From: a virus
Length of the DNA stretch: 21,307 nt
Virus record (IMG/VR): IMGVR_UViG_3300004369_000182
Coordinates: 1-21,307 of that record
Direction: 5' to 3' (one strand)
Positions 1 through 15,265 of the stretch are shown piece by piece. Under the pieces are notes generated by a model, which did no database searches, was not told the origin of the DNA, and was given only the letters and a program-made list of their open reading frames with translations. Position 1 is the first letter of the stretch. Each line of letters starts with the position of its first letter. The translations under genes were made by a program, and so were the position numbers.

Positions 1-1064
1 CTAAGCGGCTTGAAGCGTTTATCTATAAATCTAAAGTAGAGTTCCCCGCCGTCGCACTTGTCGTATATTACTAACGAGCCCGAAACTACATTGTAGATGG
101 GGTTTTCGTTCTCCGATGCCCCACCGATCGCATTGTCGTGATGCATGCCCATACCCGCCCCTATGCCATAAACGGCGACGTGAGCGTCGCTCCGCCACTG
201 AAGACAATCTTTTGCTTCCGGGTACACATTCGAATATGCATGTATGCAATCAAACATTGCTTTTTCGAGTTTGGTGTGAAACTCCATATCGTTGGAGGGG
301 GCTCCTTCTGGTGAAAGATTCAAGTATCTTTCTGGAGCCTCTGTAACTTGTGCTTTCGTAAACTTATATCCACCGCGATTCACGTAAAACCCATTTTCAT
401 CAATTGTGTAGTCATGCGGTTCAACTTTGCGCCTACGCTCCAGCCAGCCAGGGATAAAGGCTTCATCAACCGCAAGCACATTGTGGAACTCCACAATCCC
501 ATACCCATAATCTGTATGTGGCATTGTTTTGTCCTTGTCTCGATTTTCTCTCCACCGTTTAATGTCTTTGGCAGTTTCTTGAGTTTCGCAAATGGAACCC
601 CTAAATATGTCACCATCAATAAGGCGATGAGCGAATGCTGAGTGCTTGCCGCTTAAATATATTGTTCGTTCTGCATTTGGGTTTTCGACGTGAGGGTAGG
701 GCCACCCATAAATCGCTGCCTCGACGTAACGAATACGCGCACGAGACAGCATCTCCCGAAGGTATACTTCCTGATTTTTGTCACCAATATGGTTGGCATC
801 AATATATGTCCCCGTGAAGCCATGCTTTATTGCTTCTTCGGCATTTGGGAACACCCCTCCCCCCATGCAAATAGAAATAATAACCTCAACCTCCTGGGAC
901 ATGGCTCCGATAGTGCCGAGATCGATTAGCCCAATGGAGTTGGCGCGAGTCTTGGTGGTCTCGGAGCGCCCATTTAGTGCGCAAAAAACATCATGGCCAT
1001 TCCTTAAACACGCTTGGGCTAAGGATGCCCCCATTTTGCCCGGGTGCAAGATGCCAATTTTCAT
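1..1064 (-). CDS. Fusion of NAD(P)-binding dehydrogenase-type domain and 2OG-Fe(II) oxygenase (3' end outside window)
   Basis: The reading frame opens with an ATG at 1062-1064 and stays open for 354 codons to the window edge, so the C-terminus is missing. Residues 1-160 resemble the Rossmann domain of beta-hydroxyacid/6-phosphogluconate dehydrogenase-like proteins, closest to the DUF1932-associated type: the N-terminal loop reads GILHPGKMG (residues 4-12), followed by a GHDV strand end, an SIC strand end near 64-66, TYIDAN near 86-91 and an IYLSG motif at 135-139. Residues about 180-354 are a 2OG-Fe(II) oxygenase domain. It shares DYGYGIVEF with the neighbour at 1061-1687 and has the HxD iron ligands H308 and D310; the distal His and Arg lie beyond the edge. 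The start overlaps the upstream stop as ATGA, implying translational coupling. The helical C-terminal domain expected after such a Rossmann domain appears replaced by the oxygenase. Substrate unknown. Confidence 0.85.
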   Translation of the reverse strand, partial: MKIGILHPGKMGASLAQACLRNGHDVFCALNGRSETTKTRANSIGLIDLGTIGAMSQEVEVIISICMGGGVFPNAEEAIKHGFTGTYIDANHIGDKNQEVYLREMLSRARIRYVEAAIYGWPYPHVENPNAERTIYLSGKHSAFAHRLIDGDIFRGSICETQETAKDIKRWRENRDKDKTMPHTDYGYGIVEFHNVLAVDEAFIPGWLERRRKVEPHDYTIDENGFYVNRGGYKFTKAQVTEAPERYLNLSPEGAPSNDMEFHTKLEKAMFDCIHAYSNVYPEAKDCLQWRSDAHVAVYGIGAGMGMHHDNAIGGASENENPIYNVVSGSLVIYDKCDGGELYFRFIDKRFKPL

Positions 1065-1687
1065 TGATCAGCCTGGCCCAATTCCACTATCTCAAAATTC
1101 CCAGTTCTTTTCCCATGCCCAAACCACTCTAGTCGTGCGACCCTGGTCCCAGAGATCACTTTAGTTATGTAGTGGGCCCCCATGAAATTAGATGGGAATG
1201 CAAAGAATGAACCTTTGCACGGGAGAAATTCCTGACCAAGATAGTGAAATCCCAACGCTCCACCTACGCAGCGATCTGAGAGAATCAGCGAAGTAGAAAT
1301 TACCGAGCCGATCAATTCTTCGTTTTGTGTCCCCGAGTCGATCGCATTGTCATTATGCACCCCGATGTGGCAACCTGGTCCATAGGAGATCACATGAGAG
1401 TCTCCTCTCCATGCAATTGATTTCGCTGCCCCAGGGTAGATCTTTGCGTAGTGTCCTACTGCTCTCATCGTGGCATCCCGTAGGCGCTGAATCAGCATTA
1501 ATCGAGACTCATCGGGGTGACCTGCATAAAAATTCGGGTACCTCTGAGGGGCCATTTCAAACGCCTTGTAGCATTCAGGCTGCTCGTCATGCATGTCCTC
1601 AACCCATGCATCGAGTACGTCATCTGCAATATTCGCAATCAACAGCGGAAATTCCACCACCCCGTAACCATGGTCAACGCAGTCCAT
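1061..1687 (-). CDS. 2OG-Fe(II) oxygenase, prolyl-4-hydroxylase-like
   Basis: This 208-residue protein has the core of a 2-oxoglutarate/Fe(II)-dependent dioxygenase. Iron ligands are H111 and D113 (in GVHNDNAI) and distal H172, followed ten residues later by R182, the expected 2OG-carboxylate-binding position. The preceding segment YPGAAKSIAWRGDSHV matches the C-terminal domain of the fusion gene at 1-1064, so the two are paralogues, this one lacking the NAD(P)-binding part. The N-terminus starts almost directly at the shared GYGVVEF motif. An AGAGGA-type ribosome site lies about 11 bases before the ATG, overlapping the end of the upstream gene four bases away. Its stop overlaps the next start as ATGA. 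Proline, other amino-acid side chains or small molecules are possible substrates; the sequence does not tell which. Confidence 0.85.
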   Translation of the reverse strand: MDCVDHGYGVVEFPLLIANIADDVLDAWVEDMHDEQPECYKAFEMAPQRYPNFYAGHPDESRLMLIQRLRDATMRAVGHYAKIYPGAAKSIAWRGDSHVISYGPGCHIGVHNDNAIDSGTQNEELIGSVISTSLILSDRCVGGALGFHYLGQEFLPCKGSFFAFPSNFMGAHYITKVISGTRVARLEWFGHGKRTGNFEIVELGQADQ

Positions 1688-1691
1688 GGGT

Positions 1692-2543
1692 TTACTGATC
1701 CTCTAACGCCCCAGTTGGAGGAAGCAAGGAGTACCCAGTCGGCATGTACACATTAGAGGACATTTGCGCTTGGTCTGGGTGGGCGAGGGGATCGCACACC
1801 TCTTCTCTCACTGATGGGTTTGGCGTGCCCTGGCAGTACCAGCCTAGGTACGAATAACGCCAACCGCCCGTAATCATTTGCACTTCATGAGCCGCCATGT
1901 AATTCGAAGGGAAAAATAGAATGTCCCCTTTCGACGGCTTGTGGGTTATATCTAAGTAACAAAAATGGTGCAAACCCCCTGTGAAATTTGTGCCATCAAG
2001 TTCATCCTCCGAATCGACGCAATCGTTGAGGTAGGCGACGACTGAGACCGTATTGCGGGTTGCCAATTGATCAATCGGGTGCGGCTTGCCATATTCGTAG
2101 TCAGTTGATACATCCGAGTGCATCCCAAGGTACGCCCCCTTGGGGTACGCCACGATATGACTTTTAATTTTCCACCATATGCACTTCCCAACTAAAGGGA
2201 AAATGTCTAAATAGGACAGGAGGCACTTGTCGCGTACTGATTCGATGTAATTAAGGGCTTCGATTACTTTCTCGTCAGAATTTTGGTGAATCATACTTCC
2301 TCGCCAAGGCATTTCCTCGATGGAATTCTTGTTGAAGAAGTAACCGCTTCTGTTTATATATCCTTCAATCCCGCTTATTGGGTCAATGCCAGGAGTATAC
2401 GATTTGGCCCTTTCTTCAAGAAGAGTTTCGTGGCAAAAATTTCGCATCCAATCCCAATCAAGGGAAAATACATTTCTAAACAAAACGACACCCGACCCAA
2501 GGTGTGTCGCCTCAAATCTGTCACCACTGTTGTTTTGGCTCAT
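1692..2543 (-). CDS. 2OG-Fe(II) oxygenase, prolyl-4-hydroxylase-like
   Basis: This 283-residue protein carries a complete 2OG-Fe(II) oxygenase active site: H142 and D144 in LGMHSDVS, a GG turn at 189-190, the strand GDILFFPSNYMAAHEV with distal H219, and R229 ten residues later. The spacing fits prolyl-4-hydroxylase-like members. It aligns in order with the two downstream oxygenases (FP..., IWWKIKSHIVAY, G.H.D), so it is probably the third member of a local tandem family. About 45 C-terminal residues after the catalytic core are Pro/Ser-rich and unassigned. The ATG overlaps the end of the methyltransferase gene by 23 bases and has an AGAAGG ribosome site about 4 bases upstream, which supports this start. 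Substrate unknown. Confidence 0.85.
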   Translation of the reverse strand: MSQNNSGDRFEATHLGSGVVLFRNVFSLDWDWMRNFCHETLLEERAKSYTPGIDPISGIEGYINRSGYFFNKNSIEEMPWRGSMIHQNSDEKVIEALNYIESVRDKCLLSYLDIFPLVGKCIWWKIKSHIVAYPKGAYLGMHSDVSTDYEYGKPHPIDQLATRNTVSVVAYLNDCVDSEDELDGTNFTGGLHHFCYLDITHKPSKGDILFFPSNYMAAHEVQMITGGWRYSYLGWYCQGTPNPSVREEVCDPLAHPDQAQMSSNVYMPTGYSLLPPTGALEDQ

Positions 2544-3147
2544 AAAACCTTCTCAAGTATTCCCTACTAACATACTGCTCGCACTTTTGCCAGTCTATGA
2601 CGTTTGGATCGATCCAGTAGTCCTCGCCAACATCGCGAACTGCCAGTACGTAACCAAACGAGTCCAGGATTTCTCTTTGGATATCCCGCATCACCTGATT
2701 GCGAAAATATTTGATCCAATCATGCTCAAAGCAAATAACAGAAAACCGATAAGACGATAAAGGGAGACTGATTAGTCCATGGAGGCAGTTTAATGGGTTG
2801 CCCCTTGGCCGTCGTGCATAGTCGTACCCAGTGTCGATATCAATCTGTAAAAAATCTATCTGCTTGGGAAAATTATTTTCCTCGAAGTAGGATATGTAGT
2901 TAAATTTTAGGGCATCGCCAAAACATGGGTTTCGCCGTGCTGAGTTGAACTCACTCCTCCGTTCTTCCTTAATTTCAAAAGATACGCCAACCCAGCCGTA
3001 TGTATTTTCCAGGAAGTAAGTATTGCTTTGTTCGCGCGAATGATAGGCGCCGACCTCCACATAATGACCCTGGGATTTGAAATTGGTCATTTCTAAAGCA
3101 AATAATTCTTGGGTGCTTTCACCAGGGTATCGATTGTGATTAGGCAT
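2521..3147 (-). CDS. FkbM-like SAM-dependent methyltransferase
   Basis: This 208-residue protein resembles the FkbM class of methyltransferases, which usually O-methylate sugar or polyketide hydroxyls. Motif I is seen as GHYVEVGAYHSREQSNT (residues 27-43), with the acidic residue ending strand 2 at E58 and an IDFLQIDIDTG segment (97-107) typical of the family's motif with central Asp. A late segment, FGYVLAVRDVGEDYWIDP (164-181), also matches the FkbM end pattern. The gene lies 9 bases after the TauD-like gene, with only a weak GGCAGG ribosome site. It is placed among oxygenases that could create hydroxyl groups, so methylation of a hydroxylated product is conceivable, but that is inference. 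Confidence 0.75.
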   Translation of the reverse strand: MPNHNRYPGESTQELFALEMTNFKSQGHYVEVGAYHSREQSNTYFLENTYGWVGVSFEIKEERRSEFNSARRNPCFGDALKFNYISYFEENNFPKQIDFLQIDIDTGYDYARRPRGNPLNCLHGLISLPLSSYRFSVICFEHDWIKYFRNQVMRDIQREILDSFGYVLAVRDVGEDYWIDPNVIDWQKCEQYVSREYLRRFYEPKQQW

Positions 3148-3156
3148 AGGCCTGCC

Positions 3157-4671
3157 CTATCTGTCGATCTCATGCTCATTGAGTTCGAGCATGTACTGCA
3201 GGTAGTCAACGATTGCTTCAATAATTTCTTTTCGTTCTTCGTTTGTTTCAAGATGGTTGAAACATCCATACACCGTGTCGACGGCAAACTGAACCAGGAA
3301 GTCAAATGGGGGTTGCGAATCCTCAAAACCTTCATAATCGATGAACGATAAATTATGCCAATCCCAAGGGCGATTCTTTAGGGGCTGGTGCGGGAACCAG
3401 TCTGGATAGTGCCAAGCGTGCCCTGCATGCCGAAGATCTGCATGGAATTCTCCAAATGCTTCGATCAGCCGAAGTAATGGCCATCTGCCCTGATCGTCGA
3501 GTTCGGTGCTAAAAAGATCGTCCGATGGAGCATATGCTTTCTCCAGATCTCCATTAGGGGTAAACAGAAATTTTTGGCCCTCTAAGGGGGCCCCAGGAAG
3601 GGCGCGCTTGCTATAGCGTTCGAGAAAGTTTCCCGACTCAGGCGAGACGGGGATGATGTCAAATTCAGGGTTCCAAGTTTCTGCTTTTACCCGCTCCGCA
3701 TCTTCCGGTATTTGTCCGTTGCTGCTATAAACGAACATTGTTGCTTTTTGGAATCTGTGCTCCAGGCCGGGCAAGGCGTAAATGCCCTTAGTAAACACCA
3801 ATGGGATGTGATCTGGATTTGGGCCAACCGACCTGTCTTTTGCTACCGTATGATGCCTAATGACATCACCGAATGCAGGGTTCAGTTTTGATTGCCTGCC
3901 GGGGTCAAAATATGGCATCTCCTCTCCGATGCTCCCACGGGCAAATATGCGCTGAGAATGATTCCACCCAGGCCCAAAAGAATGGATAGTTGCCCTATTG
4001 TCCCAGACAATAAAGTCTCCAACTTTCCAGTCCCACTGGTACCAGTTGCGACCGTCTGACAGATACTGGTGTACCCATTCTGAAAACGCAGGGAACCAGT
4101 CGCACTCCACTTCGGGGGAAGTTTCTGGGCCAGTCCAAAAAATCATCGTCTCGCCGGTCACCGGATGTGTCCGTAGGGCCGGGTGAGCAACCAGCCCCTG
4201 ATCCCCGCACGGTGCAATGGAACCTGTGTGGTGGACAAATTTAATGAGTTCTAATTCTTTTTTGAAATGATCTGGACACATTTCATACATCAAGCACAAA
4301 GAAGCCAAATAGGTTGACCCAACGCCTTTGGGCAAATCAAATGTATGCATATGCATCGATGTGAACGATGGAGGTTCCGGGAGAAATGGATTGTCGACAT
4401 GCCATTGTGACATCACAAAATTGTGATGCTCGCTGGATAGGGTGTTCGGGTTCCCGATATGGTTCTCGTTGGGGAGTAAGCCTTCTTCTGGTTTCGGATC
4501 ATCGCCCCTATATAAGGCATGGAGTATTGCAAAATGCTCGTCTTGAGTTGGATGAAGTCCGATAAATCCGATCATTTTATTACGAGCGAGGATTTCGGCG
4601 AAATATTCACCATCCTCAATAATTTGCTGGGCCGTTAGTCCCTTGACCTTGAAGCCAAGTGATCCAAGCAT
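3157..4671 (-). CDS. TauD/TfdA-type 2OG-Fe(II) dioxygenase with long C-terminal extension
   Basis: From the ATG at 4669-4671 the product is 504 residues. Residues 1-45 look like the usual TauD N-terminus (GFKVKGLT...). Iron ligands are H91 and D93 in QWHVDNPF and distal H220 in ATIHSFG. R231 and R235 follow at +11 and +15, the spacing of the 2OG-binding arginines in E. coli TauD. The TauD fold should end near residue 245. The remaining 260 or so residues are not a known part of it; they are rich in Trp, His and Phe and contain AWHYPDWFPHQP. An ATG at 4788 would add 39 basic/hydrophobic residues but overlaps the upstream gene by 95 bases and has no ribosome site. The ATG at 4671 follows the upstream stop by 22 bases with a weak AGGT, so I prefer it. 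Substrate unknown. Confidence 0.85.
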   Translation of the reverse strand: MLGSLGFKVKGLTAQQIIEDGEYFAEILARNKMIGFIGLHPTQDEHFAILHALYRGDDPKPEEGLLPNENHIGNPNTLSSEHHNFVMSQWHVDNPFLPEPPSFTSMHMHTFDLPKGVGSTYLASLCLMYEMCPDHFKKELELIKFVHHTGSIAPCGDQGLVAHPALRTHPVTGETMIFWTGPETSPEVECDWFPAFSEWVHQYLSDGRNWYQWDWKVGDFIVWDNRATIHSFGPGWNHSQRIFARGSIGEEMPYFDPGRQSKLNPAFGDVIRHHTVAKDRSVGPNPDHIPLVFTKGIYALPGLEHRFQKATMFVYSSNGQIPEDAERVKAETWNPEFDIIPVSPESGNFLERYSKRALPGAPLEGQKFLFTPNGDLEKAYAPSDDLFSTELDDQGRWPLLRLIEAFGEFHADLRHAGHAWHYPDWFPHQPLKNRPWDWHNLSFIDYEGFEDSQPPFDFLVQFAVDTVYGCFNHLETNEERKEIIEAIVDYLQYMLELNEHEIDR

Positions 4672-4693
4672 AAGACCTGCCGCTAGACCGCCT

Positions 4694-5425
4694 TTAACTT
4701 TTTTCACGAGGGACCTCCAAAGTCGCATGATTTTCATGCCGTGGGCCAATTCTATTACCCTCGGCGTCGAGGCCAGTCCTAATCCCATTCATCCAAGACC
4801 ACGGTTTTTCTTGAAGTTTCTTTACTTTCGCATCCCCATACGCTTGGCGAGAGGCAACAAGTTCCTTGTTGTCCCATAGGTTCTTCACTTCGAATTCGGT
4901 TTCTTTTATGAGAGACGGTTCGTAGAAATTGAAAAATGCTAGTCCTGACCCAGCGGGAAATGTAATTGGAGTTTTTTCCTTGGTGATAATCCAACTCATA
5001 TTGACCTCATCGGGCCACCAATCGGAGGGGATGGATGCCGACAAAGGAATGGCTCCATCAACTACGTAGTTGGGAGTGCCGGTCAACCATGTATGTACCC
5101 CAGGTGGGGTATTAAAGACCCAACCTAGGCAAAATGTAGCCATCCCGACAATCGATTGCTGGACAATATTTTGTTCATAAGAATGCCCGTTGATCGATCG
5201 AGTTACCGTCCCACCCTCTAGGACGCGAGGGACACTGGTGCCCCCGTCCCATTGGAAGACAACGTCATGCGGAAGGACAATTTCCCAACCGCTTACATTG
5301 GCCTCTGTCACAGGAAGGCATCTATAGGCGTGCTTGTTATAGGTGTCGTCCATCCATTGGCGACGAACGGTTGACTGACGTATTTCTAGAGGCTGAGGCG
5401 TTGTTTTGACCAACGATACCTTCAT
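4694..5425 (-). CDS. DUF6065 family protein of unknown function
   Basis: This 243-residue protein matches my recollection of the DUF6065 family: RRQWMDDTYNKHAYRCLPVT (residues 22-41), GWEIVLP (47-53), a QWDGG (58-62), a GILTF-like GMATFCLGWVF, a PPGVHTWLTGTPNY segment and a VNMSWIITK strand. The family function is unknown to me; it is found in phages and in bacteria near modification genes. No signal peptide or transmembrane segment is evident. The ATG overlaps the stop of the preceding oxygenase gene as ATGA and there is no clear ribosome site, so translation is probably coupled. The identification rests on motif memory, not a database search. Confidence 0.7.
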   Translation of the reverse strand: MKVSLVKTTPQPLEIRQSTVRRQWMDDTYNKHAYRCLPVTEANVSGWEIVLPHDVVFQWDGGTSVPRVLEGGTVTRSINGHSYEQNIVQQSIVGMATFCLGWVFNTPPGVHTWLTGTPNYVVDGAIPLSASIPSDWWPDEVNMSWIITKEKTPITFPAGSGLAFFNFYEPSLIKETEFEVKNLWDNKELVASRQAYGDAKVKKLQEKPWSWMNGIRTGLDAEGNRIGPRHENHATLEVPREKS

Positions 5426-6129
5426 GACGCCGAAGAGACTTGACCGCCCCCGACCGTTGGCAAATCAGGCTTTGGGTATGTCGTCGGGTCATAGCCCGGC
5501 TGATTTTGCTGCTGGTGATTTCTGTCGTTGTAGTCGTACATAGTGACCGCCGAATACTTGACACCCTTCGTTACTGGTCGTGACGAGTGAGCATAAATGA
5601 AGTTCGACGGGTGGATAATGAGGTCTCCCTTTTCGGGCTTAAACATGACATCCTGGAAGGGCATCAAGTATTCCCCTCCCTCGTAGTCGTCATTGATGTA
5701 CCCAATCGACGACACCGTGCAAAAGTATGCGAAGCCTGAATCCGGGTGGACACCAAAAAATTGACCCTCTTCGTACTTGACAAAGTTGGTGACTTCCTCG
5801 TACTCCAAAACCAGGTTGTACAGCGATGAATAGTGGCGCACGCACTCCCTGACCCCAGCAATTACTTCGGCATATACATTCTTCAAGTCGGACATTTCTT
5901 CGGGCAATGTATGGAGTGAGCGCTCTCCAATTTTCAGGTCATAACAATCTCGATAATTCTTCATGACCTCGTAATCGCCGACAGTGGCAGGGAGCCACTT
6001 GTAGGCGTCGTTCTCGTGAGCCCGAAGAGCATCCTCAATGCGCTCAACGAAATTTGCATCCGGCGACCATACGTTCTTATATAGAACGATTCCTGCATTG
6101 GGGTGCCCGATGTACCCTGCGATATCCAT
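5422..6129 (-). CDS. 2OG-Fe(II) oxygenase, prolyl-4-hydroxylase-like
   Basis: This 235-residue protein has the HxD ligands H128 and D130 (FFGVHPDSG), the strand YINDDYEGGEYLMP, GDLIIHPSNFIYAHSS with distal H171, and K181 at +10. Lysine in that position is the 2OG ligand in classical prolyl-4-hydroxylases, so this copy is the most P4H-like in the window. The C-terminal 35 residues are Gln/Pro/Ser-rich and look flexible. A perfect AGGAGG lies 4 bases upstream of the ATG, suggesting efficient translation. It follows the second glutathione-peroxidase-like gene by 42 bases and overlaps the DUF6065 gene by 4. Substrate unknown. Confidence 0.87.
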   Translation of the reverse strand: MDIAGYIGHPNAGIVLYKNVWSPDANFVERIEDALRAHENDAYKWLPATVGDYEVMKNYRDCYDLKIGERSLHTLPEEMSDLKNVYAEVIAGVRECVRHYSSLYNLVLEYEEVTNFVKYEEGQFFGVHPDSGFAYFCTVSSIGYINDDYEGGEYLMPFQDVMFKPEKGDLIIHPSNFIYAHSSRPVTKGVKYSAVTMYDYNDRNHQQQNQPGYDPTTYPKPDLPTVGGGQVSSAS

Positions 6130-6171
6130 TTATCCTCCTGTGTTTGGCGTGTCGCGATTGACTCTACTACG

Positions 6172-7107
6172 TCACAGTTCTGTTTGTGACAACATGAAGT
6201 TAATGTCTTTAGTAATGAGATCAAGCGAATGGGTCACCCCAAATCGAATAATCTCAATAAAATCAAAATTCGGAGCCGAGAACATCTCGCTTTCCAAGTT
6301 TACGTTCGGCTCGCTGGACTTGACGGCTCCACCCCTATAGTCCTCGATCCCATCTTCGGAAGTTGAAATTGAAAGCCAAGGAAACAAATTATTGTTCCGG
6401 TCACGCTGTCCAAACAGAAAACCATTGCCGTATCTGATAAAACATTCGCCAGATCTAGAGATCAGGAATTTTTCGAAATTCCCACGTAGTGGGGCGTACC
6501 CTCGTTTATGGTCTGGTGGTCTAACTCGTTTAACGTCAGTCCATCCTGCAACTTCATTTTGGTACGGAATGCCATTTTCGTTGACGTCAGCCAGATATGC
6601 CCCAGTTAGATAATGCCAAAAATTACTCATTTCTTGAGTTGGCTTTTCTCCAGGGACCCACTTGGGATCGTAAGTGTGCTTATCGTATCGCCCATAGGTT
6701 TGCGAAGTGAATGGGTATGTTGATCCATAATTTTCGAAAGCGTATTTGCAAGCCATTTGCCCGGGCGAGATTGACAGCCCGTGGCCGTCAATGTAATTTT
6801 GAAGACCATCTTGAAACTCTGGGTAGCCATGGCACCAAAAATCGTCAACGACAACAGCAAGAATAGAGAAGTCAGGGTTGTCTGCAAAACGCCTGTTTAA
6901 CTCTTCGAGAACAGCATGTTGCGGGATATTCCCACATCCTGCCGCTACATTGAAGAGGAGCGTTACTTTCCCAGCCAATTTTCCTAAGATGTCTTCGTTG
7001 GGGTCGTTTGCTGAGCCGAGTTCTAAGTCATAAATAGAAATTGGTAAACGGTTGATCCGGCAAGGTTCGTTTTCAAATATTTCTTTGCTCGGTATTGTGT
7101 AATCCAT
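6172..7107 (-). CDS. Glutathione-peroxidase-like thioredoxin-fold protein (second copy)
   Basis: From the ATG at 7105-7107 the product is 311 residues. It has the GPx core: SIYDLELG, GKVTLLFNVAAGCGNIP with C58 at the peroxidatic Cys/Sec position, a VDDFWCHGYPEF segment where GPx has its FPCNQFG loop, ENYGSTYPF, and GNFEKFLISRSG, equivalent to the GPx WNF-KFL motif. The tetrad Asn is kept but the Trp is Gly, and the tetrad Gln is not obvious. It has a roughly 110-residue C-terminal tail beyond a normal 160-200-residue GPx. I prefer this start over the ATG at 7167 because an AGGAG at 7119-7123 overlaps the upstream stop, whereas 7167 has no ribosome site and a 46-base overlap. Paralogue of 7799-8662. 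Peroxidase, disulfide or redox-partner roles are all possible. Confidence 0.8.
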   Translation of the reverse strand: MDYTIPSKEIFENEPCRINRLPISIYDLELGSANDPNEDILGKLAGKVTLLFNVAAGCGNIPQHAVLEELNRRFADNPDFSILAVVVDDFWCHGYPEFQDGLQNYIDGHGLSISPGQMACKYAFENYGSTYPFTSQTYGRYDKHTYDPKWVPGEKPTQEMSNFWHYLTGAYLADVNENGIPYQNEVAGWTDVKRVRPPDHKRGYAPLRGNFEKFLISRSGECFIRYGNGFLFGQRDRNNNLFPWLSISTSEDGIEDYRGGAVKSSEPNVNLESEMFSAPNFDFIEIIRFGVTHSLDLITKDINFMLSQTEL

Positions 7108-7118
7108 AACGGCAGTTT

Positions 7119-7123
7119 CTCCT
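7119..7123 (-). promoter_or_regulatory. Ribosome binding site that decides the 7107 start
   Basis: AGGAG on the minus strand, overlapping the TAG stop of the upstream oxygenase gene and lying 11 bases before the ATG at 7105-7107. The longer candidate start at 7167 has no such site. Confidence 0.6.
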
Positions 7124-7772
7124 AGCCACGGAAGCCTGTGATTGTGTAGAAAGATGGTGTCGTCCATCGAACGCCAGACAGTACGGGCTTAACACCATGG
7201 AGATAATGAATATCCCCCGGATGTGCAACGGCCATTCCCGCTTGAATAGGATATTCTCGCCGATGATCTGGGTAGTAGAACTCCCCACCACTAAAGTCGT
7301 CATTCCAGTAAATAATCGAGTTGATGTCGTAGAGCGGGAAAGGGTTGGGTCGACCATCGTTCAGTTGTTTGTCGGCGTGAGGTTCTTGCAAGTTACCTGG
7401 GAGCCAGCGAACTAAAACGGGAGGCCGCTGATGCACGTATACGCCAAACTTGTCCTCAATAATCATGGCCATTTTATCGATGTACTTTTCTAAAATTTCA
7501 AATGCCTTGAGATCTAGTTCTCCAATAATTTGGCCACTGCACACTCTGTCCCACCAATAATGCTTTTGATAGATGCAGTCGCCCTCTTCGTTGTATGTAT
7601 CGTCCATGCCGTTTTCCCACCTGTCGATGGTCTCAACGAAAGATTGGATGTAAGCGAGATCGCCTGGATCAACAAAGTTTTCTTCGTAAACGATGTTGTC
7701 CGAAGACGCACCAAAATGGCCTGGCTGGACAAGGGAGTCTTCAATAATTTCGTAATCTTGCTCGTTGTCCAC
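7122..7772 (-). CDS. 2OG-Fe(II) oxygenase, prolyl-4-hydroxylase-like, GTG start
   Basis: This 216-residue protein has the HxD ligands H132 and D134 (LQEPHADKQ), then IIYWNDDFSGGEFYYP, an AVAHPGDIHYLHGV segment with distal H192, and R202 at +10, a complete 2OG-Fe(II) oxygenase site. It starts with GTG at 7770-7772; an AAGGT ribosome site sits 6 bases upstream (7779-7783) and no in-frame ATG lies before residue 56, so the GTG is well supported. The gene lies between the two glutathione-peroxidase-like genes, 26 bases after the first. Sequence similarity to the 5422-6129 oxygenase is limited to the catalytic core. Substrate unknown. Confidence 0.87.
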   Translation of the reverse strand: MDNEQDYEIIEDSLVQPGHFGASSDNIVYEENFVDPGDLAYIQSFVETIDRWENGMDDTYNEEGDCIYQKHYWWDRVCSGQIIGELDLKAFEILEKYIDKMAMIIEDKFGVYVHQRPPVLVRWLPGNLQEPHADKQLNDGRPNPFPLYDINSIIYWNDDFSGGEFYYPDHRREYPIQAGMAVAHPGDIHYLHGVKPVLSGVRWTTPSFYTITGFRG

Positions 7773-7778
7773 AATCTG

Positions 7779-7783
7779 ACCTT
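7779..7783 (-). promoter_or_regulatory. Ribosome binding site supporting a GTG start
   Basis: AAGGT on the minus strand, 6 bases before the GTG at 7770-7772. Confidence 0.55.
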
Positions 7784-7798
7784 GGGGAGAAGTTGCGT

Positions 7799-8662
7799 TT
7801 ACTCTATCACGTCAGCCAAAAAATTGTCAATCTCTTGCCGGATAGTCTGAAGCGAAACGTCAATCCATTTGCGTTGGAGGGGGGTGGGGAAAGGGCCGTT
7901 ATTATCTGGATTGTCTGCTCTTTCCTGGTGGTTTGGTCTCCAGTCGGGGACACCAGGGTAAATTTCCTCTTTTTCAAAACCCGGGTAGAGGTTGGCATGC
8001 TCGTCGCGCTCACCCAGAAGGAAGGCATTGGGGTACCGTCGAACTCGCCTCCCGCTCCTATCAACAAGAAATTTATCAAAGTTTCCCGTCAGTGGAATAA
8101 ACGACTTTAGGTCATCGGCTGGCTTTTCCGAAAAGGAGTCGGACCAAGGTAGTTGCTCGTTGTGGACTGGTAGCCCATTGTCCCCAATAGAGGCTTCAAA
8201 TGCTTCTGTTAGCAGATACCACAATTCGTGCATATCCTGCTCTTTGACAGATCCAGGAACGAACGATGAATCGTAGCGATGCTTATCGTATCTGCCATTC
8301 GTCAATTCGGAGAAGGAATAGGTAGCCCCATAATTGTCGCGTGCGTATTGCTGGGCAACCTGCCCTGGGGTAACAGTCAGCCCGTTTTCCTCGATGTAAT
8401 TAACTAAACCATTTGAAAACTCTGGGTACCCATGGCAAGTGAAATCGTCAACGGTCACGGCCACAATATTGAAATCCGGCTCATCCCGATATGACTCATT
8501 AAGTTCCTGCAAAATCATGTGCTGGGGGATATTGCCGCACCCTGCAGCGCAATTGAATACAAGGGTAACTTTCCCCTTGTAGGCACCAAGCAAGTCGTCG
8601 ATTTGGCCATCCGCCGACCCTAAAGGGACGTCGTAAATTGATTTAGGCAGAAGTTTAGCCAT
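7799..8662 (-). CDS. Glutathione-peroxidase-like thioredoxin-fold protein (first copy)
   Basis: This 287-residue protein shows the GPx fold signature in order: SIYDVPLG (8-15), GKVTLVFNCAAGCGNIP (30-46) with C42 at the peroxidatic position, VDDFTCHGYPEF (71-82), DNYGATYSF (109-117) and GNFDKFLVDRSG (193-204). C38 and C76 are further cysteines that could act as partners. The tetrad Trp is replaced by Gly before the conserved Asn-Phe, so classical peroxidase chemistry may be altered. About 80 C-terminal residues lie outside the GPx fold. The gene starts 6 bases after the PASTA/xFPP gene with an AAGGA site about 10 bases upstream, placing it in the same transcript as the tail genes. It is a paralogue of 6172-7107. 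Confidence 0.82.
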   Translation of the reverse strand: MAKLLPKSIYDVPLGSADGQIDDLLGAYKGKVTLVFNCAAGCGNIPQHMILQELNESYRDEPDFNIVAVTVDDFTCHGYPEFSNGLVNYIEENGLTVTPGQVAQQYARDNYGATYSFSELTNGRYDKHRYDSSFVPGSVKEQDMHELWYLLTEAFEASIGDNGLPVHNEQLPWSDSFSEKPADDLKSFIPLTGNFDKFLVDRSGRRVRRYPNAFLLGERDEHANLYPGFEKEEIYPGVPDWRPNHQERADNPDNNGPFPTPLQRKWIDVSLQTIRQEIDNFLADVIE

Positions 8663-8668
8663 GTTGGC

Positions 8669-9229
8669 TTAATCCTTCGCGTTTTCGTCTTCTTCGGAGG
8701 TCGTCGTATCTTTGCTTTTACGCTTGATAATGCCAGGAAGGAACAAATCAGTACCATCTTTAGTGAACGATGGCGGGAAGAAAGGCGGGAAATATGGACC
8801 GAACGCTGGCGGGAAGAAAGGCGGAAAGAAAGGCGGGAAGTGTGGCGGGAAGAAAGGCGGGAAGAAAGGCGGGAAGTGTGGCGGGAAGAAAGGTGGGAAG
8901 TAGGGCGGGAAGAATGGCGGGAAGTGCGGGGGAAAGAAAGGCGGGAAGAAAGGCGGAAAATAGGGCGGGAAATAGGGTGTGGCGATCACGTAGTTGATGA
9001 TCTCGCCCAAAGGGATAGTGCTCCCTGCTGTCTCTGTTTGCGAAATAACTTTATTGAGGTTGCCGGAACCTATTGAGCCACCACTGTCATCAATAGGGCT
9101 TGTCGTTGAACTGGTCCCGATAAACCCTGCGTTAGAAACCTGGGTGTCAGCATTGGCGGAAGTCAGGCCGACAAGGTTTGGTACGGTGCCTTTCGGCAGT
9201 TCCTCACTCCATGATGGATTAGTAGCCAT
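8669..9229 (-). CDS. PASTA-domain protein with (xFPP)17 proline-rich repeat
   Basis: This 186-residue protein has a PASTA-like domain at about residues 14-84 (TVPNLVGLTSANADTQ near the start, then VISQTETAGSTIPLGE), as found in peptidoglycan-sensing kinases and PBPs of Actinobacteria and Firmicutes. Residues 86-153 are 17 tetrapeptides xFPP with x = Tyr, Phe or His; one unit is degenerate (AFGP). A charged, Ser/Thr/Glu-rich tail follows. No signal peptide is seen. It lies 3 bases after the giant fibre gene with an AAGGT ribosome site, so it is probably a virion or fibre-associated protein that may bind cell wall. The repeat is a possible substrate for the neighbouring prolyl-hydroxylase-like enzymes (inference). 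Confidence 0.8.
   Translation of the reverse strand: MATNPSWSEELPKGTVPNLVGLTSANADTQVSNAGFIGTSSTTSPIDDSGGSIGSGNLNKVISQTETAGSTIPLGEIINYVIATPYFPPYFPPFFPPFFPPHFPPFFPPYFPPFFPPHFPPFFPPFFPPHFPPFFPPFFPPAFGPYFPPFFPPSFTKDGTDLFLPGIIKRKSKDTTTSEEDENAKD
8771..8974 (-). repeat. 12-base tandem repeat encoding xFPP tetrapeptides
   Basis: Seventeen consecutive 12-base units on the minus strand, mostly of the form TTC CCG CCN plus one aromatic or His codon; on the plus strand it reads as GGCGGGAAG-rich DNA. A higher-order pattern HFPP-FFPP-FFPP (36 bases) is visible in the left half. One unit is degenerate (AFGP). Confidence 0.95.
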
Positions 9230-9232
9230 GAT

Positions 9233-12200
9233 TTACACCTTCATGTCGCCTGACAGTAGCCAGGTATCTGTCGCCCGCTTACGGAGTGTAGCAGTTGACC
9301 ACTGGGCTCTCAAACGAGCGCCAGCCGCATTATTGACAGTAACGCCCGTGTCTCCGGCTATGGTCACTTCTCCGGTTCCGACTCTGGTGATCGTAATTAC
9401 TGTTCCCACCGGGAACGCTTCGTTTGCGTTTGTGGGGACAGTAATTGTAATAGCACTTGACGAGTTTGCCTCGATTACCTTGTATTGGTGGGTCGCCAGA
9501 GCCAAAGTCGCTGAAGCGGTGAAATCATAATATGCCTCCGGGAAGAAAGTTGTAGAAGGCAATGTCACGGTCCCCGTAAAAGTGGGGGACGCTAGTGAGG
9601 CAATATCCGCAAGCGGGTCATTCACCCACTCGCCCGCAGTGCTGTCATACCGAAGAACATCGTTATCGCTCGGGCTGGGAGCGTTAATATCCCCCACGTC
9701 GTCGATGGCGTTAATTGTCGGGATATCTGCAGCCTGCCATTCGCTACTGGCGGACACGTACTTGAGGAACTGCCCGTCGCTCGGCGTAGGCGCATTAACA
9801 TCCCCAACGTCATCCAGATTGTTGATTGTAGGAATTGATGCCCATTCAACTCCATTAGTTGCACCGGAATTGGACTTAAGAAAGTAGCCGTCAGTGCCCG
9901 CGCTCAAGATCGCTGGTGTACCTGCTGATGCTCCGACGATGAGATCGCCCGTGGCAACAATGTCGGCATTGAGTATCGCCTGATCGCCTATCTCCGCGTC
10001 TACAAATGCTGTTGTCGCAATTTGTGTCGTGCTGTCGCCAACTGATGCCGTAGGCGCGGTGGGGGTCCCCGCAAGTGCCGGGTCGGTAGCGCGTACGGCC
10101 CCACCGGTTCCTGTCGAAGAGGTGCCATTGATGTAAATGTCGTCGACATCGATTGAGCCCAGAGTCCCCGTGAAGACTTCGCCGGTGTTGGTTGCATCCG
10201 GGATGAACGTGAATCTTCCGGTTCCTTCGTCGTAGCCAAAGAACCCGACCTTGGCGTCAGTCCCATTGTGCCAGCGGAACTCGACACCTCGATCCTTGCT
10301 GTCGTTGATTGTGGGGGCCGCATCTCCACCGAGGGTGATGACGGGATCATCCACTGTAGTGACAGTTGAGTTCACCGTTGTAGTTGTGCCGTTCACCGTA
10401 AGGTCACCCGAGACAACCAGGTTGTCGTCAATGGTAACAGTTCCTCCAGCAGAGTCAATAGTCAAGTCCCCGCTAGACGTATCAATCTCGTTAGCGTCGG
10501 TAATGCCTACTTGAATTGCGTCCAAGGTTGCGCCAGCAAATGTTGGAGAGTCCGTTGTCTCTACCGATTGGCCGATGGCAACAGTTGGCGTTGCTCCTTC
10601 GCCCGAGTTATTGGATAGGGTGACACCAGTTCCAGCAACTAGGCTTTCTACGTAATCTCCGGTCGTGTCAGTGCCCAGGTCGACGGCATCGTTGACCCAT
10701 GCAGAGCCGTTCCACTTCAGAAAGTCTCCGGAGGTCGCTGAGGTAATCGTGACATCGCTGACGTCTTCAAGGTTTGCACTGAGGCTGACAGTTGCTGTTG
10801 AACCCTCTGCTGGAGTATGTGAAACAGCGATACCCGTACCAGCGGACAAATCGGACATGTAGTTGCCGGTTGTGTCAGTCCCAAGCGCGATTGTCCCATT
10901 GATGGCCAATGTTCCACTTGCATCGGGCAGCGTGATCGTGCGGTCAGCAGTGGGATCTGTAGCCGTGAGCGTAGTTTCGAAGTCGTCGGCAGTGGCGCCC
11001 TCGAATACCACATCAGAGTTTGTCCCTAGCGATGATGCACTGATTGTCCCTGCCGTCGCAATGTCGGCAGAAACATTCACACGAGTATTTGCAATGTGAA
11101 GATACTGCGTATGATCATCATCACCTAGGCCGGTCATCGTTCCGTGGTCACTCACTGGTTGAGCAGGGATGCCACTACCAGCCGATATGGCTCGGCGGAT
11201 ATCAGTGACTCCACGGATGGATGCTTTGACAGTATTGGCAAAGCCATCCGATACGACAAAAGCAATCTTGTAAAGCGGACGGAACTCAAAAATGGGGAAG
11301 TCCGTCAGAGTCAGGTCTTCCCAATCACTTTCTTCTATCGTGCTTTGGTTGTCCGCCGATGTCTGACCGAGGATGGCAATAACAGGCTCATTTAAGTTGT
11401 TAGTAGCCACAATCCACATTGCGCCGTACTTGTTGTTCTGGACATCAGCGGTTGACCAGGTGCCAGCGGTATTCAGGTTGTACTGAGCGCGGGATGTGCC
11501 AGCCTTAAACGGGAATGTCGTGGCCGCATCTTTCACCCATGCCGTACCAGATAGATAGAACACGGGAATTTCCGCTGTGCCTTCAAGCACCTGTTGCCAG
11601 GTATTTGCAGTGGGCGAAGCGGAGTGAGTGATGTCAACCTGGAGGTCTTCGTCAAAGAAAGTTCCTCCGGTCAGAGCGATCTGAGCATGGGAGTCGGAAT
11701 TACCATCCCCGTCGGTGACATACCCGCTTGCACTAAATCCACTTGCGATAGCCGCTCCGCGCGTACGATGCAGGTATTCATGGGTCTGCCAGTCGAGGGT
11801 TACCCCGTGGCGCTCATCAGCGAAGAACTCCGCCTTGCTTGTGGTGGCGTTCCAGTAAATATACGCCGTAGGCGTGTCGTTCTCCCAATCAAAGTAAGAT
11901 GTTCGATAGGACAAGACTCCTGACGAATTGAAATAAATGTAGTACAGGCCAGTTGTTGAGCCAATTGTGACGGTCTCGGCGCTGGACTTAACATACCGCT
12001 TGCCCTTACACCAGACCGTGTATGACGAGCCAGAGGGTTCGATAGTGAAAACCCGTGTTCCGTCATTGAACGAAATCGTGCTGTCTGCCTTATTTTCGTG
12101 GCCAATGGGCTCCGACCCGGCCTGAACTGCATTGACCCAATTTGTTCCGTCATACTGAAGAATCTCGCCGTTTGCAGCCGACGTGATCACGGCATCCGTG

Positions 12201-15200
12201 AGATCGTCCACTCCCATGGTTTCAGTGACAGTTGCCCACTCGACGCCATTCGCCGCAGCAGAGTTGGCCTTAAGGAAGTAGCCATCCGTACCTACGCCCA
12301 ATCGTGCTACCGTGTCAGCACCGCTGGCGACGATGAGGTCACCCTTGGCATCGACAACGCTGTTCAAAACGGCCTGATCGCCGATTTCTGCATCAACGAA
12401 TGCTGTTGTAGCAATTTGTGTCGTGCTTGTTCCAACTGAAGCAGTGGGAGCCGTTGGGGTCCCTGTGAGAGGCGTGTCAGCGAAGTCGATAGCAGAAGTT
12501 TCTTGCCCGGTCACACGCCCATATGAGTCAACCGTAACGGACGAAACAAAAGTGGTGGTATCGGACCCTGAAGTATTTGACTGGGCAACACCAGCAAGGT
12601 CGATGTCGTCGGCATTCACTACAATTCGGGCGGCGCTTGCCGTGCCGACATTAATCGTGTTGCCCGACTGGCTCATACCGTCGCCAGCAGTGAATGCCTG
12701 AGTGCCAGTGAACTGTGTGAAACTCAAGTCATCTGTTCCGATGGAATGGGCGCCATCAGTCCCCGAACCCGAAGTAGTGAGAACGAAACCCTGGCGCACA
12801 TTCACTGCACCGGCGGTAATATAAATAGCCTCGCCTGACTTAACCTCGTTAGAGGGGCTAGCGTCGAAGTCTGTGGATCGTGTCAAGACCCAGTATGTAT
12901 CTACAGCATTACCCTGCTCGGTTACGACGTATACGCCATTTTCTGATGCATCGGTCTGGTTTTTAACGAGAATGCGATCACCGGTTGTTGCATTCGTTCC
13001 ATCTACGAAAAGTCGTGAATAGGCCGTGGCAGTTAGTGTGGCGCCCACACCCGAGGAGCCGTTGCTGTAGGACGGAGTGTTGGGTAGAGCAGCGGCCGTG
13101 GCAAATTTTGCGGCTTGGTGCCAGTCCAAACCCGCCACTGCTGTATCAACATAAGACTTTGTTGCGGCATGAGTAGCCTGCGAGGGCGAGGAAGTGATTG
13201 TTACGTTTGCGAACGTGACATCGTCAGTAGTAGCAACGGCCTGCCCAATGGAAATAGTAGGGGTAGCGCCTTCGCCTGAATTATCTGCAAGGGTAATGCC
13301 GGTACCAGCAACCAAACTATCCACATAGTCACCGGTGGTATCAGAGCCAAGTGCTACTGCATCGGCGCTGACGGTTGTAGATATCTGAACATCACCAGAA
13401 CCGTTAAATGAAACTGATCCAGTTACATCGCCAGTAAGTTCGATAGTGCGGCTTGTTTCAAGTGTTGTGGCAGTTGAAGCGTTTCCTATGAGCGAGCCCG
13501 TTACATCACCGGTGAACGTCGCATCGGTTCCGTCCGTGCCAGAGTCAAGAACGGTGGTTCCATTTGTTGCCTTGACGTCACCGACGAGATTGCTGGTAAC
13601 ACTATTGAAAGTTACATCGTCAGTTGTTCCAACAGACTGGCCAATAGCAACGGACGGGGTAGAGCCCTCGCCCGTTCCCCCGGTAATGGTAACGCCGGTT
13701 CCGGCTGAAATGCTTTCGACGTAGTCCCCAGTAGTGTCCGTACCAAGTACTGTGGAATCGGCGCTTACCGTAGTAGAGATTTGGACATTGGCTGAGCCAT
13801 CAAAAGAAACCGACCCGGTCACATCTCCAGTAAGTTCGATGGTACGTGCCGCCTCCAGAGAACTAGCCGTTGAGGCGTTCCCTGCAACAGACCCAGTGAA
13901 TGTTGCATCAGTCCCATCTGTGCCAGAGTCAAGAACGGTGGTTCCATCCGTGGACTTGACGTCGCCAATCAGGTTGCCGGTAACGCTATTGAAGGTGACG
14001 TCATCGGTTGTTGCGACGGACTGGCCGATAGCGATGCTTGGCGCGGAGGCCTCTCCCGGGGTGTGGGTAACGGTAACACCAGTGCCGCCAGTGACATCGG
14101 AAACATAGTTGCCATTTGTGTCTGCGCCAAGATCAATTTGACCAATAAGAGCAACTTCGCCCGATGAATCGGGGAAAGTAATTTGCCGATCAGCAGTAGG
14201 ATCTGTTACAGCAAGCGTCGTCTCAAACTCATTGGCAGTATTGCCTTCAAAAATGATGTGCGAGCCATCAATTGTGACTTCAGCAAATGTAACGGAGTCT
14301 GTTGTCGCTACTGGCTGACCAATAGAAATTGTAGGCTGAGACCCCTCGCCAGTTCCATCGGCAACCGTAACGCCCGTACCGGCAGTTAGGTCTTGTACGT
14401 AATCGCCTGTCGTATCGTTACCAAGTTCAATAGTGCCCTGGATGGCCAGAATTCCCGACTCATTCGGGAACGTGATTGTCTGATCGGCTGTTAAGGTCTC
14501 AAATCCAAAACTTAAGTCATAAACGCCACCATTAATTGTTTCAAAAGTAAGGCCATCAGTAATTGTTACCTGGCCAAATGATGGGTCCGTAGTCGGAACC
14601 GGATGATATGTGGTTCCATCGTTAGTGAACTCCCAAATATCCAGAGTTTCATTCCAGCGAACCAGGACATTCGTATCGGACGTGCCGCGTTCCACTTCGA
14701 TACCAGCGTTGACGCTGGCAGTCGTAGCATTTGAATTAAGAACAACGACATTATCCTCAATGGTTAGTTCAGTGGTGTTGATGCTGGTTGTTGTTCCGTT
14801 AACGACAAGGTCACCACCAATGGTGACGTCTCCAGTCGTCTCAATGCTATTGAACTGGACATCGTCAGAGGTGCCAACAGATTGCCCAATAGCAATCGTC
14901 GGCGTTGCGCCCTCGCCAGAATTGTTCGTGAGCGTTATCCCGGTTCCGGCGGTGAGACTTTCGACGTAATCGCCCACCGAGTCAGTGCCGAGATTGACGG
15001 CATCGTTGATCCAGGCGGAGCCATTCCAGCGGAGAAAATCCCCATCTACGGCAGAAGAAATAATGACATCGCTAATGTCATTTAGGACACCCGCCCCCAT
15101 GGTATTGACGTATGAAAGACTATTCCAAGCGGTAGACCCGTCTCCCGTCTTCATCTTGTAAGTGTCAGTCTCGTAACCAACTTCGCCAGCAGCCAAAGTT

Positions 15201-15265
15201 GGATTCGCCGAAGTCCAAGAAGCAGCCGTACCTCTGCGGAACTGAATTACAACATTTGCGCTCAT
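9233..15265 (-). CDS. Giant repetitive tail fibre protein, 2010 residues
   Basis: The N-terminus (about residues 4-52, VVIQFRRGTAASWTS...GDGSTAWNSL) resembles the Mtd N-terminal/fibre attachment domain that anchors many phage fibres. The body holds seven copies of a roughly 50-residue beta unit (LG-DTTGDYV-SL-AGTG...GEG-TP...IGQ-V-TTD-VTF), five in the first third and two later. Between them is a segment with SYVDTAVAGLDW and RILVKNQTDASENGVYVV, shared with the 16045-17403 protein. A non-repeat central region (residues about 1050-1390) ends in GLGDDDHTQYLH, a common fibre motif. The C-terminus (ITVPTNANEAFPVGT...WLLSGDM) is a common fibre tip type. A GGTGGAG ribosome site lies 6 bases before the ATG. 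Likely role: host-surface recognition; receptor unknown. Confidence 0.9.
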   Translation of the reverse strand: MSANVVIQFRRGTAASWTSANPTLAAGEVGYETDTYKMKTGDGSTAWNSLSYVNTMGAGVLNDISDVIISSAVDGDFLRWNGSAWINDAVNLGTDSVGDYVESLTAGTGITLTNNSGEGATPTIAIGQSVGTSDDVQFNSIETTGDVTIGGDLVVNGTTTSINTTELTIEDNVVVLNSNATTASVNAGIEVERGTSDTNVLVRWNETLDIWEFTNDGTTYHPVPTTDPSFGQVTITDGLTFETINGGVYDLSFGFETLTADQTITFPNESGILAIQGTIELGNDTTGDYVQDLTAGTGVTVADGTGEGSQPTISIGQPVATTDSVTFAEVTIDGSHIIFEGNTANEFETTLAVTDPTADRQITFPDSSGEVALIGQIDLGADTNGNYVSDVTGGTGVTVTHTPGEASAPSIAIGQSVATTDDVTFNSVTGNLIGDVKSTDGTTVLDSGTDGTDATFTGSVAGNASTASSLEAARTIELTGDVTGSVSFDGSANVQISTTVSADSTVLGTDTTGDYVESISAGTGVTITGGTGEGSTPSVAIGQSVGTTDDVTFNSVTSNLVGDVKATNGTTVLDSGTDGTDATFTGDVTGSLIGNASTATTLETSRTIELTGDVTGSVSFNGSGDVQISTTVSADAVALGSDTTGDYVDSLVAGTGITLADNSGEGATPTISIGQAVATTDDVTFANVTITSSPSQATHAATKSYVDTAVAGLDWHQAAKFATAAALPNTPSYSNGSSGVGATLTATAYSRLFVDGTNATTGDRILVKNQTDASENGVYVVTEQGNAVDTYWVLTRSTDFDASPSNEVKSGEAIYITAGAVNVRQGFVLTTSGSGTDGAHSIGTDDLSFTQFTGTQAFTAGDGMSQSGNTINVGTASAARIVVNADDIDLAGVAQSNTSGSDTTTFVSSVTVDSYGRVTGQETSAIDFADTPLTGTPTAPTASVGTSTTQIATTAFVDAEIGDQAVLNSVVDAKGDLIVASGADTVARLGVGTDGYFLKANSAAANGVEWATVTETMGVDDLTDAVITSAANGEILQYDGTNWVNAVQAGSEPIGHENKADSTISFNDGTRVFTIEPSGSSYTVWCKGKRYVKSSAETVTIGSTTGLYYIYFNSSGVLSYRTSYFDWENDTPTAYIYWNATTSKAEFFADERHGVTLDWQTHEYLHRTRGAAIASGFSASGYVTDGDGNSDSHAQIALTGGTFFDEDLQVDITHSASPTANTWQQVLEGTAEIPVFYLSGTAWVKDAATTFPFKAGTSRAQYNLNTAGTWSTADVQNNKYGAMWIVATNNLNEPVIAILGQTSADNQSTIEESDWEDLTLTDFPIFEFRPLYKIAFVVSDGFANTVKASIRGVTDIRRAISAGSGIPAQPVSDHGTMTGLGDDDHTQYLHIANTRVNVSADIATAGTISASSLGTNSDVVFEGATADDFETTLTATDPTADRTITLPDASGTLAINGTIALGTDTTGNYMSDLSAGTGIAVSHTPAEGSTATVSLSANLEDVSDVTITSATSGDFLKWNGSAWVNDAVDLGTDTTGDYVESLVAGTGVTLSNNSGEGATPTVAIGQSVETTDSPTFAGATLDAIQVGITDANEIDTSSGDLTIDSAGGTVTIDDNLVVSGDLTVNGTTTTVNSTVTTVDDPVITLGGDAAPTINDSKDRGVEFRWHNGTDAKVGFFGYDEGTGRFTFIPDATNTGEVFTGTLGSIDVDDIYINGTSSTGTGGAVRATDPALAGTPTAPTASVGDSTTQIATTAFVDAEIGDQAILNADIVATGDLIVGASAGTPAILSAGTDGYFLKSNSGATNGVEWASIPTINNLDDVGDVNAPTPSDGQFLKYVSASSEWQAADIPTINAIDDVGDINAPSPSDNDVLRYDSTAGEWVNDPLADIASLASPTFTGTVTLPSTTFFPEAYYDFTASATLALATHQYKVIEANSSSAITITVPTNANEAFPVGTVITITRVGTGEVTIAGDTGVTVNNAAGARLRAQWSTATLRKRATDTWLLSGDMKV
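10538..10768 (-). repeat. Dispersed 77-codon repeat, C-terminal copy
   Basis: Encodes EDVSDVTITSATSGDFLKW...GQSVETTDSPTF, the second copy of the block at 14852-15082, about 4.3 kb away in the same gene. Confidence 0.8.
13352..14131 (-). repeat. Two tandem units (128 and 132 codons) in the fibre gene
   Basis: Units at 13748-14131 and 13352-13747 encode near-parallel blocks: DYV/NYV-AGTG..., then LIGDVKSTDGTTVLDSGTDG versus LVGDVKATNGTTVLDSGTDG, then RTIELTGDVTGSVSF and QISTTVSAD in both. DNA identity is also high locally, for example around TTGACTCTGGCAC on the minus strand. Confidence 0.85.
14852..15082 (-). repeat. Dispersed 77-codon repeat, N-terminal copy
   Basis: Encodes NDISDVIISSAVDGDFLRW...GQSVGTSDDVQF, matching the copy at 10538-10768 residue for residue in length, with most positions identical. 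Confidence 0.8.

Follow-up and report, generated by a model that had tools for sequence, protein, structure and literature searches.

Virus-encoded prolyl hydroxylases have been on record since at least 1999 without a target ever having been established, and a review describes the viral use of prolyl 4-hydroxylase (P4H) as something that "remains cryptic" (PMC9301287). The same question, what such enzymes act on, is raised by the IMG/VR virus record IMGVR_UViG_3300004369_000182 (positions 1 to 21,307), the whole of which, 21,307 bases, is called the window below. Every recognisable gene of the window lies on the minus strand, and at 3-8662 ten open reading frames (ORFs) follow one another head-to-tail, either separated by 4-42 nt or overlapping slightly (ATGA at 5422-5425 and 1061-1064). 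In transcription order this island consists of glutathione peroxidase (GPx)-like protein 1 (GPx1), P4Hd, GPx-like protein 2 (GPx2), P4Hc, DUF6065, a TauD-type oxygenase, an FkbM-like methyltransferase, P4Hb, P4Ha, and a Rossmann-P4H fusion, where the names P4Ha to P4Hd denote the four P4H-like enzymes that are not part of a fusion. The first-pass annotation of this DNA had counted the genes correctly (six 2-oxoglutarate (2OG)-Fe(II) oxygenases, five P4H-like and one TauD-type, two GPx-like proteins, one FkbM-like protein, and DUF6065), and we confirm that the island is co-directional with the tail and fibre genes and downstream of them. We consider it probable that the island serves as a dedicated module for post-translational hydroxylation and that it acts on the aromatic residue-Phe-Pro-Pro (xFPP) repeat of an adjacent tail-region virion protein. 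Four observations carry this proposal: a conserved gene set, linkage of repeat and enzymes in two directions, catalytic motifs, and a peptidyl-prolyl-hydroxylase-like profile and fold.

The proposed substrate is a protein of 186 aa (8669..9229) whose gene starts 3 nt after that of a 2010-aa fibre. A PASTA domain (3.1e-5) occupies residues 15-78 and is followed by 14 consecutive aromatic-FPP units (YFPP, FFPP, HFPP). The protein failed a Gly-X-Y test, its repeat being aromatic-F-P-P and not collagen-like. Of 1475 xFPP units, 1460 have Phe, Tyr, His or Trp as x. Synonymous codons differ between repeat units and the peptide is constant, therefore the peptide is what is kept. The first-pass annotation held that the sequence does not point to any one substrate; this was too pessimistic, since the aromatic-FPP repeat is common to unrelated carrier proteins.

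For the forward test of linkage, viral contigs were scanned with a degenerate DNA pattern that encodes FPPxFPPxFPP and carries no information on the enzymes. This yielded at least 115 loci with three or more aromatic xFPP units. In the stretches examined, 82/115 of these loci have P4H-like genes, at a median distance of 618 bp and on the same strand in 63; 60/115 have two or more P4H-like genes, and 60/115 have DUF6065. The corresponding numbers for a collagen-like control pattern, GPPGPPGPP, were 6/120, 0/120, and 1/120. When the complete records of 33 xFPP loci lacking P4H were inspected, P4H was found in 18 and DUF6065 in 12, often 1-2 kb from the repeat, while complete records of the collagen control contained P4H in 4/40. 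In the reverse test, viral loci were sought with P4Hd alone and the best 80 of 594 relatives were kept; 63 of these 80 best loci contain xFPP. Among the 23 loci of at least 14 kb, xFPP is present in 22, P4Hc in 23, DUF6065 in 23, and GPx in 22. Co-occurrence with the PASTA-xFPP gene, a check put forward in the first-pass annotation, is thus strongly positive in both search directions. That annotation had also suggested a multi-step modification of a virion or host-surface molecule; the co-occurrence speaks for the virion molecule, and the host-surface molecule is not favoured. Judged by its gene content, the module is present in hundreds of uncultured phages.

A search of viral contigs with GPx1 found 35 loci, and about half of these display the order fibre - PASTA/xFPP - GPx - P4Hd - P4Hc - DUF6065 - TauD - P4Hb - Rossmann/P4H as far as the contig reaches. 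The conservation of the gene set in related phages, which had been left to be checked, is borne out: many other viral contigs show the island order again, which is therefore not due to chance. One might still regard the cluster as an accessory-gene hotspot without joint function, as its edge content varies (FkbM, TauD copies, P4H number, second GPx). We find this very improbable, because the core order xFPP-(GPx)-P4Hd-P4Hc-DUF6065 is seen repeatedly across divergent contigs and long-diverged orthologues still hold their catalytic motifs. GPx was tried as an anchor of the module and rejected. Fifteen GPx1 loci seemingly lacked the P4H cluster and xFPP, and both were located about 20 kb away in 7 of 10 full records; the GPx position is therefore variable and GPx is not core. 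In these seven records the repeat still adjoins the P4H cluster and DUF6065. The other three records, fragments of 20-32 kb, have no P4H cluster, no repeat, and no DUF6065. Scattering of the genes in relatives, named in the first-pass annotation as an outcome that would speak against it, was thus found for GPx only, while xFPP, P4Hc, P4Hd, and DUF6065 stay together.

The carriers of the repeat fall into several N-terminal groups without mutual relation, with FN3/PKD, PASTA, and other domains. P4H is found in the locus of 47/59 FN3-type carriers and 19/22 PASTA-type carriers; the other groups are small, and most of the N-terminal regions have P4H nearby. As the same enzymes occur beside unrelated carriers, it is the repeat and not the carrier that goes with the enzymes. 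In four proteins (L076:6071-7393, L125:4048-5253, L119:1759-3075, and L124:8063-9304) a Hint/intein-like domain with weak Pfam scores stands after the repeat (FN3-xFPP-Hint), which suggests C-terminal self-cleavage or ligation. A bacterial origin of the repeat was also considered and rejected: the bacterial and archaeal pattern matches listed are mostly short, with P, L, V, R or S as x, and none of those listed is accompanied by P4H or DUF6065 genes. No photosystem genes were found in 17 large records.

We then turn to the enzymes. Three of the proteins score over the cut-off of the Pfam family 2OG-FeII_Oxy_3 (PF13640), namely P4Hc (5422..6129; 6.3e-8), P4Hb (1692..2543; 1.9e-9), and P4Ha (1061..1687; 1.7e-6), and the fourth, P4Hd (7122..7772; 0.0016), falls under it. 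The iron-binding HxD...H motif and the 2OG-binding Arg/Lys are present in P4Ha to P4Hd (in P4Ha as HxD with distal His/Arg), and the motif is kept in 367/379 relatives. Orthologues in different phages share 44-70% identity, and paralogues within the window share about 22-33%. A maximum-likelihood tree built from 121 P4H sequences places P4Hb (support 100/100, 13 rows), P4Hc, and P4Hd (support 99/96) in separate, well supported clades common to most loci. Judging by this tree, P4Hb, P4Hc, and P4Hd are old enzymes, each maintained on its own, which suggests distinct jobs. A fifth P4H-like domain makes up the C-terminal half of the ORF at 3..1064, which runs off the end of the record: the HxD alone lies inside the window, and the remaining motif residues are seen in the complete relative L094:9898-11094. 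Its N-terminal half is Rossmann-like, with weak matches of the 6-phosphogluconate dehydrogenase/tartronate-semialdehyde-reductase kind. Such a fusion of a Rossmann dehydrogenase-like domain and a P4H-like oxygenase, in both the window and L094, is an unusual combination.

In profile searches the only solved relatives of P4Hc with E < 0.001 are Bacillus-type prolyl 4-hydroxylases (1.3e-6) and the collagen lysyl hydroxylase LH3 (2.9e-4). The best solved relative of P4Hd is human collagen prolyl 3-hydroxylase 1 (P3H1; 3.9e-8), with a prolyl 4-hydroxylase second; the profile search with P4Hb returned no solved relative. An AlphaFold2 model of P4Hc (mean predicted local distance difference test score, pLDDT, 88) gave as top fold matches a PHD-HIF peptide complex (PHD2; Z 20.4) and an algal P4H with (Ser-Pro)5 (Z 19.8), followed by a bacterial P4H-EF-Tu complex from Pseudomonas (Z 19.6) and vCPH of Paramecium bursaria chlorella virus 1 (PBCV-1; Z 17.5). 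The predicted likeness to peptidyl prolyl hydroxylases applies to P4Hc, by profile and modelled fold, and to P4Hd, by profile; P4Hb and P4Ha lie outside this claim.

The closeness of the P4Hc model to the EF-Tu complex brings in another explanation, in which the prolyl-hydroxylase-like enzymes target a host protein during infection, as the bacterial enzyme targets EF-Tu, and the xFPP gene is a mere neighbour in a late operon. Cultured viruses point the same way: six named cyanophage or marine-virus regions carry scattered, distant P4Hs (best scores 39-84) with no xFPP or DUF6065 nearby in the regions read. Other viral P4Hs may therefore do other things, and phage P4Hs can have other targets. 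For the present island we judge a host target unlikely, since the linkage to the repeat holds from either side, over unrelated carriers, and after rearrangement, and several distinct paralogues per phage suit a many-site repeat better than a single host residue. The fold matches also include the small-molecule oxygenases PasI and PolD, so that the P4H fold is not peptide-only. It could accordingly be argued that what the enzymes build or alter is a small molecule, a sugar or a nucleotide, for instance a surface glycan or a modified base, with the TauD, Rossmann, and FkbM-like proteins as pathway steps. TauD-type and Rossmann domains are typical of small-molecule enzymes, and cyanophage 2OG genes lie among glycosyltransferases. 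TauD, however, is found in only 13/23 and FkbM in 0/23 of the long loci of the reverse test. The core of P4Hc, P4Hd, and DUF6065, on the other hand, follows the repeat and is nearest to peptidyl hydroxylases where solved relatives exist, and the chance of a small-molecule pathway seems to us slim.

Under the preferred explanation, a hydroxylation module acting on the xFPP repeat, the genes would be expressed late together with the fibre genes, given their shared strand and small gaps. P4Hc would hydroxylate prolines of the FPP repeat, probably at C4, and P4Hd a neighbouring proline, probably at C3, by analogy with the 3-hydroxylation of (GPP)n in collagen (PMC3973637). Additional oxidation or methylation may come from the remaining P4H-like enzymes, from the TauD-type protein and, in the few phages that have one, from the FkbM-like protein. 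As a thiol-redox partner, the GPx-like protein could give redox or chaperone support, and DUF6065 could serve as a scaffold or adaptor. Such a module would yield a stiff, hydroxylated rod, aromatic and rich in proline, displayed on the virion by PASTA or FN3 adhesin domains, an appendage that would serve particle stability or host attachment. The virion-display step is proposed because of two things only, the location of the repeat gene behind that of the fibre and the adhesin-type domains.

Besides the named-virus P4Hs and the small-molecule fold matches discussed above, several points weigh against this proposal. In 15 of the 115 xFPP records, which are fragments of 6.9-38 kb, P4H went undetected. 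One carrier architecture, represented by nine large proteins, has zero P4H in its locus stretch, with P4Hs 20-31 kb off in some records. The collagen control was not matched for virus group, and p-values such as that for P4H in xFPP loci versus this control (Fisher, 1.8e-28) overstate the case because the controls are unmatched in this way and related contigs are not independent; the unrelated carriers answer the non-independence objection in part. Hydroxylation of xFPP prolines by these enzymes is a prediction from linkage, motifs, profile, and fold, the C4/C3 regiochemistry is guessed from distant homology, and what DUF6065 and the GPx-like and TauD-type proteins would do is conjectural.

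The accessory proteins deserve a closer description. GPx1 (7799..8662; GSHPx 4.4e-5) has solved GPx/HYR1 relatives, and GPx2 (6172..7167; GSHPx 9.2e-6) is 52% identical to it; both GSHPx Pfam matches are just under the cut-off. Within the family Cys42 is kept in 51/52, Cys76 is invariant (52/52), and Asn194 is kept. The test for the glutathione peroxidase tetrad (Cys/Sec, Gln, Trp, Asn) failed, with Asp73 at the Gln position and Gly193 at the Trp position. By these residues, the phage family (window 6172-8662 and relatives) is a divergent two-Cys, distinct thiol-redox family and not a canonical glutathione peroxidase. The first-pass statement that active-site residues are intact in all of the island proteins does not hold, as the GPx-like family lacks the tetrad Gln and Trp and the ORF at 3-1064 ends before the distal His.

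DUF6065 (4694..5425) matches PF19541 at 136.9 bits (1e-39) against a cut-off of 26.6. Its sequence had no significant match in the PDB and no dUTPase appeared in the profile search. The model (pLDDT 94) adopts a predicted beta-clip fold, with dUTPases at Z 10 (3ecy, 118 residues aligned at 3.0 A) and 8-17% identity. The dUTPase likeness is one of fold alone, which does not establish function, and a scaffold is possible. Stand-alone DUF6065 genes over the cut-off occur in 23/190 alphaproteobacterial genomes, about one in eight sampled, where P4H is absent from the ~1.5 kb flanks examined and the context gives no functional hint. Among 50,697 named phage records, two DUF6065 queries found zero matches and P4Hd found weak, partial ones only. 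The TauD-type protein (3157..4788) matches PF02668 over residues 59-272 (84.5 bits, 1.5e-23, cut-off 27), carries HVD at 130-132, and has TauD-family solved relatives. Its ~240 extra C-terminal residues match no family, and several relatives have two to four separate TauD-like genes in place of the single one. Where the TauD-type and GPx2 genes start is uncertain, since their mechanical ORFs run into the neighbouring ones by 95 and 46 nt, respectively. The FkbM-like protein (2521..3147), an accessory with few relatives among the loci, scores 21.1 bits for PF05050 (3.8e-4), below the cut-off of 22.7, and its profile search gave no solved relative.

Upstream in transcription order are baseplate/tail-type proteins, an r1t-type holin, several fibre-like proteins, and the 2010-aa fibre (9233..15265), which has structural/tail PHROG matches and lies directly before the PASTA-xFPP gene and the ten-gene island. 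An Mtd_N (major tropism determinant N-terminal) domain sits at the start of this fibre (PF18454; 1.4e-14). Promoter and terminator scans gave chance-level results only.

In our literature search no paper mentioned DUF6065, and none connected a prolyl hydroxylase of phages with a tail fibre and a proline-rich protein. Repeat proteins with hydroxylated prolines are already known, but we found no description of a phage module that is linked to an aromatic-FPP substrate of its own, as predicted here. The proposal offers a specific low-complexity substrate and, if true, a testable answer to the purpose of viral prolyl hydroxylases, along with a first functional context for DUF6065. More tentatively, and with considerable doubt, we can imagine a widespread phage fibre of aromatic FPP repeats, hydroxyproline-rich and possibly 3,4-dihydroxylated. 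Such a counterpart of collagen- or mussel-type protein would be made by at least two peptidyl prolyl hydroxylases with a beta-clip adaptor (DUF6065) and a novel two-Cys GPx-like partner, and would mediate attachment at the virion surface.

Among known systems, the collagen P4Hs, P3H1-3, and LH3 share the 2OG-Fe(II) oxygenase fold with the phage enzymes and act on proline-rich repeats. Collagen (GPP)n is formally like phage (xFPP)n, and P3H1 is the nearest solved relative of P4Hd. The phage module differs in having no Gly-X-Y and in its single-domain enzymes, which come with DUF6065 and GPx-like proteins instead of a peptide-substrate-binding (PSB) domain, CRTAP, and cyclophilin; if our proposal is true, collagen-like post-translational hydroxylation would extend to tailed phages. 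Algae and plants also modify a proline-rich repeat, that of hydroxyproline-rich wall proteins, by dedicated P4Hs, and the algal P4H-(Ser-Pro)5 structure is among the best fold matches. The phage repeat is aromatic-Phe-Pro-Pro, the enzymes are phage-encoded, and hydroxyproline glycosylation is not indicated. Cyanophage 2OG-Fe(II) oxygenases (PHROG 61, 81, 3531) belong to the same superfamily as the module enzymes, P4Hc matching PHROG 61 at up to 2.4e-23, and EGLN3-like proteins are widespread in marine phages (PMC12774648). Finally, PBCV-1 vCPH is a virus-encoded peptidyl P4H whose fold matches P4Hc. Its role in replication is unknown, purified chlorovirus virion proteins gave no detectable hydroxyproline, and no comparable linked substrate is described in that report (PMC7019647), whereas in the phage module the presumed substrate is adjacent and the paralogues are clustered.

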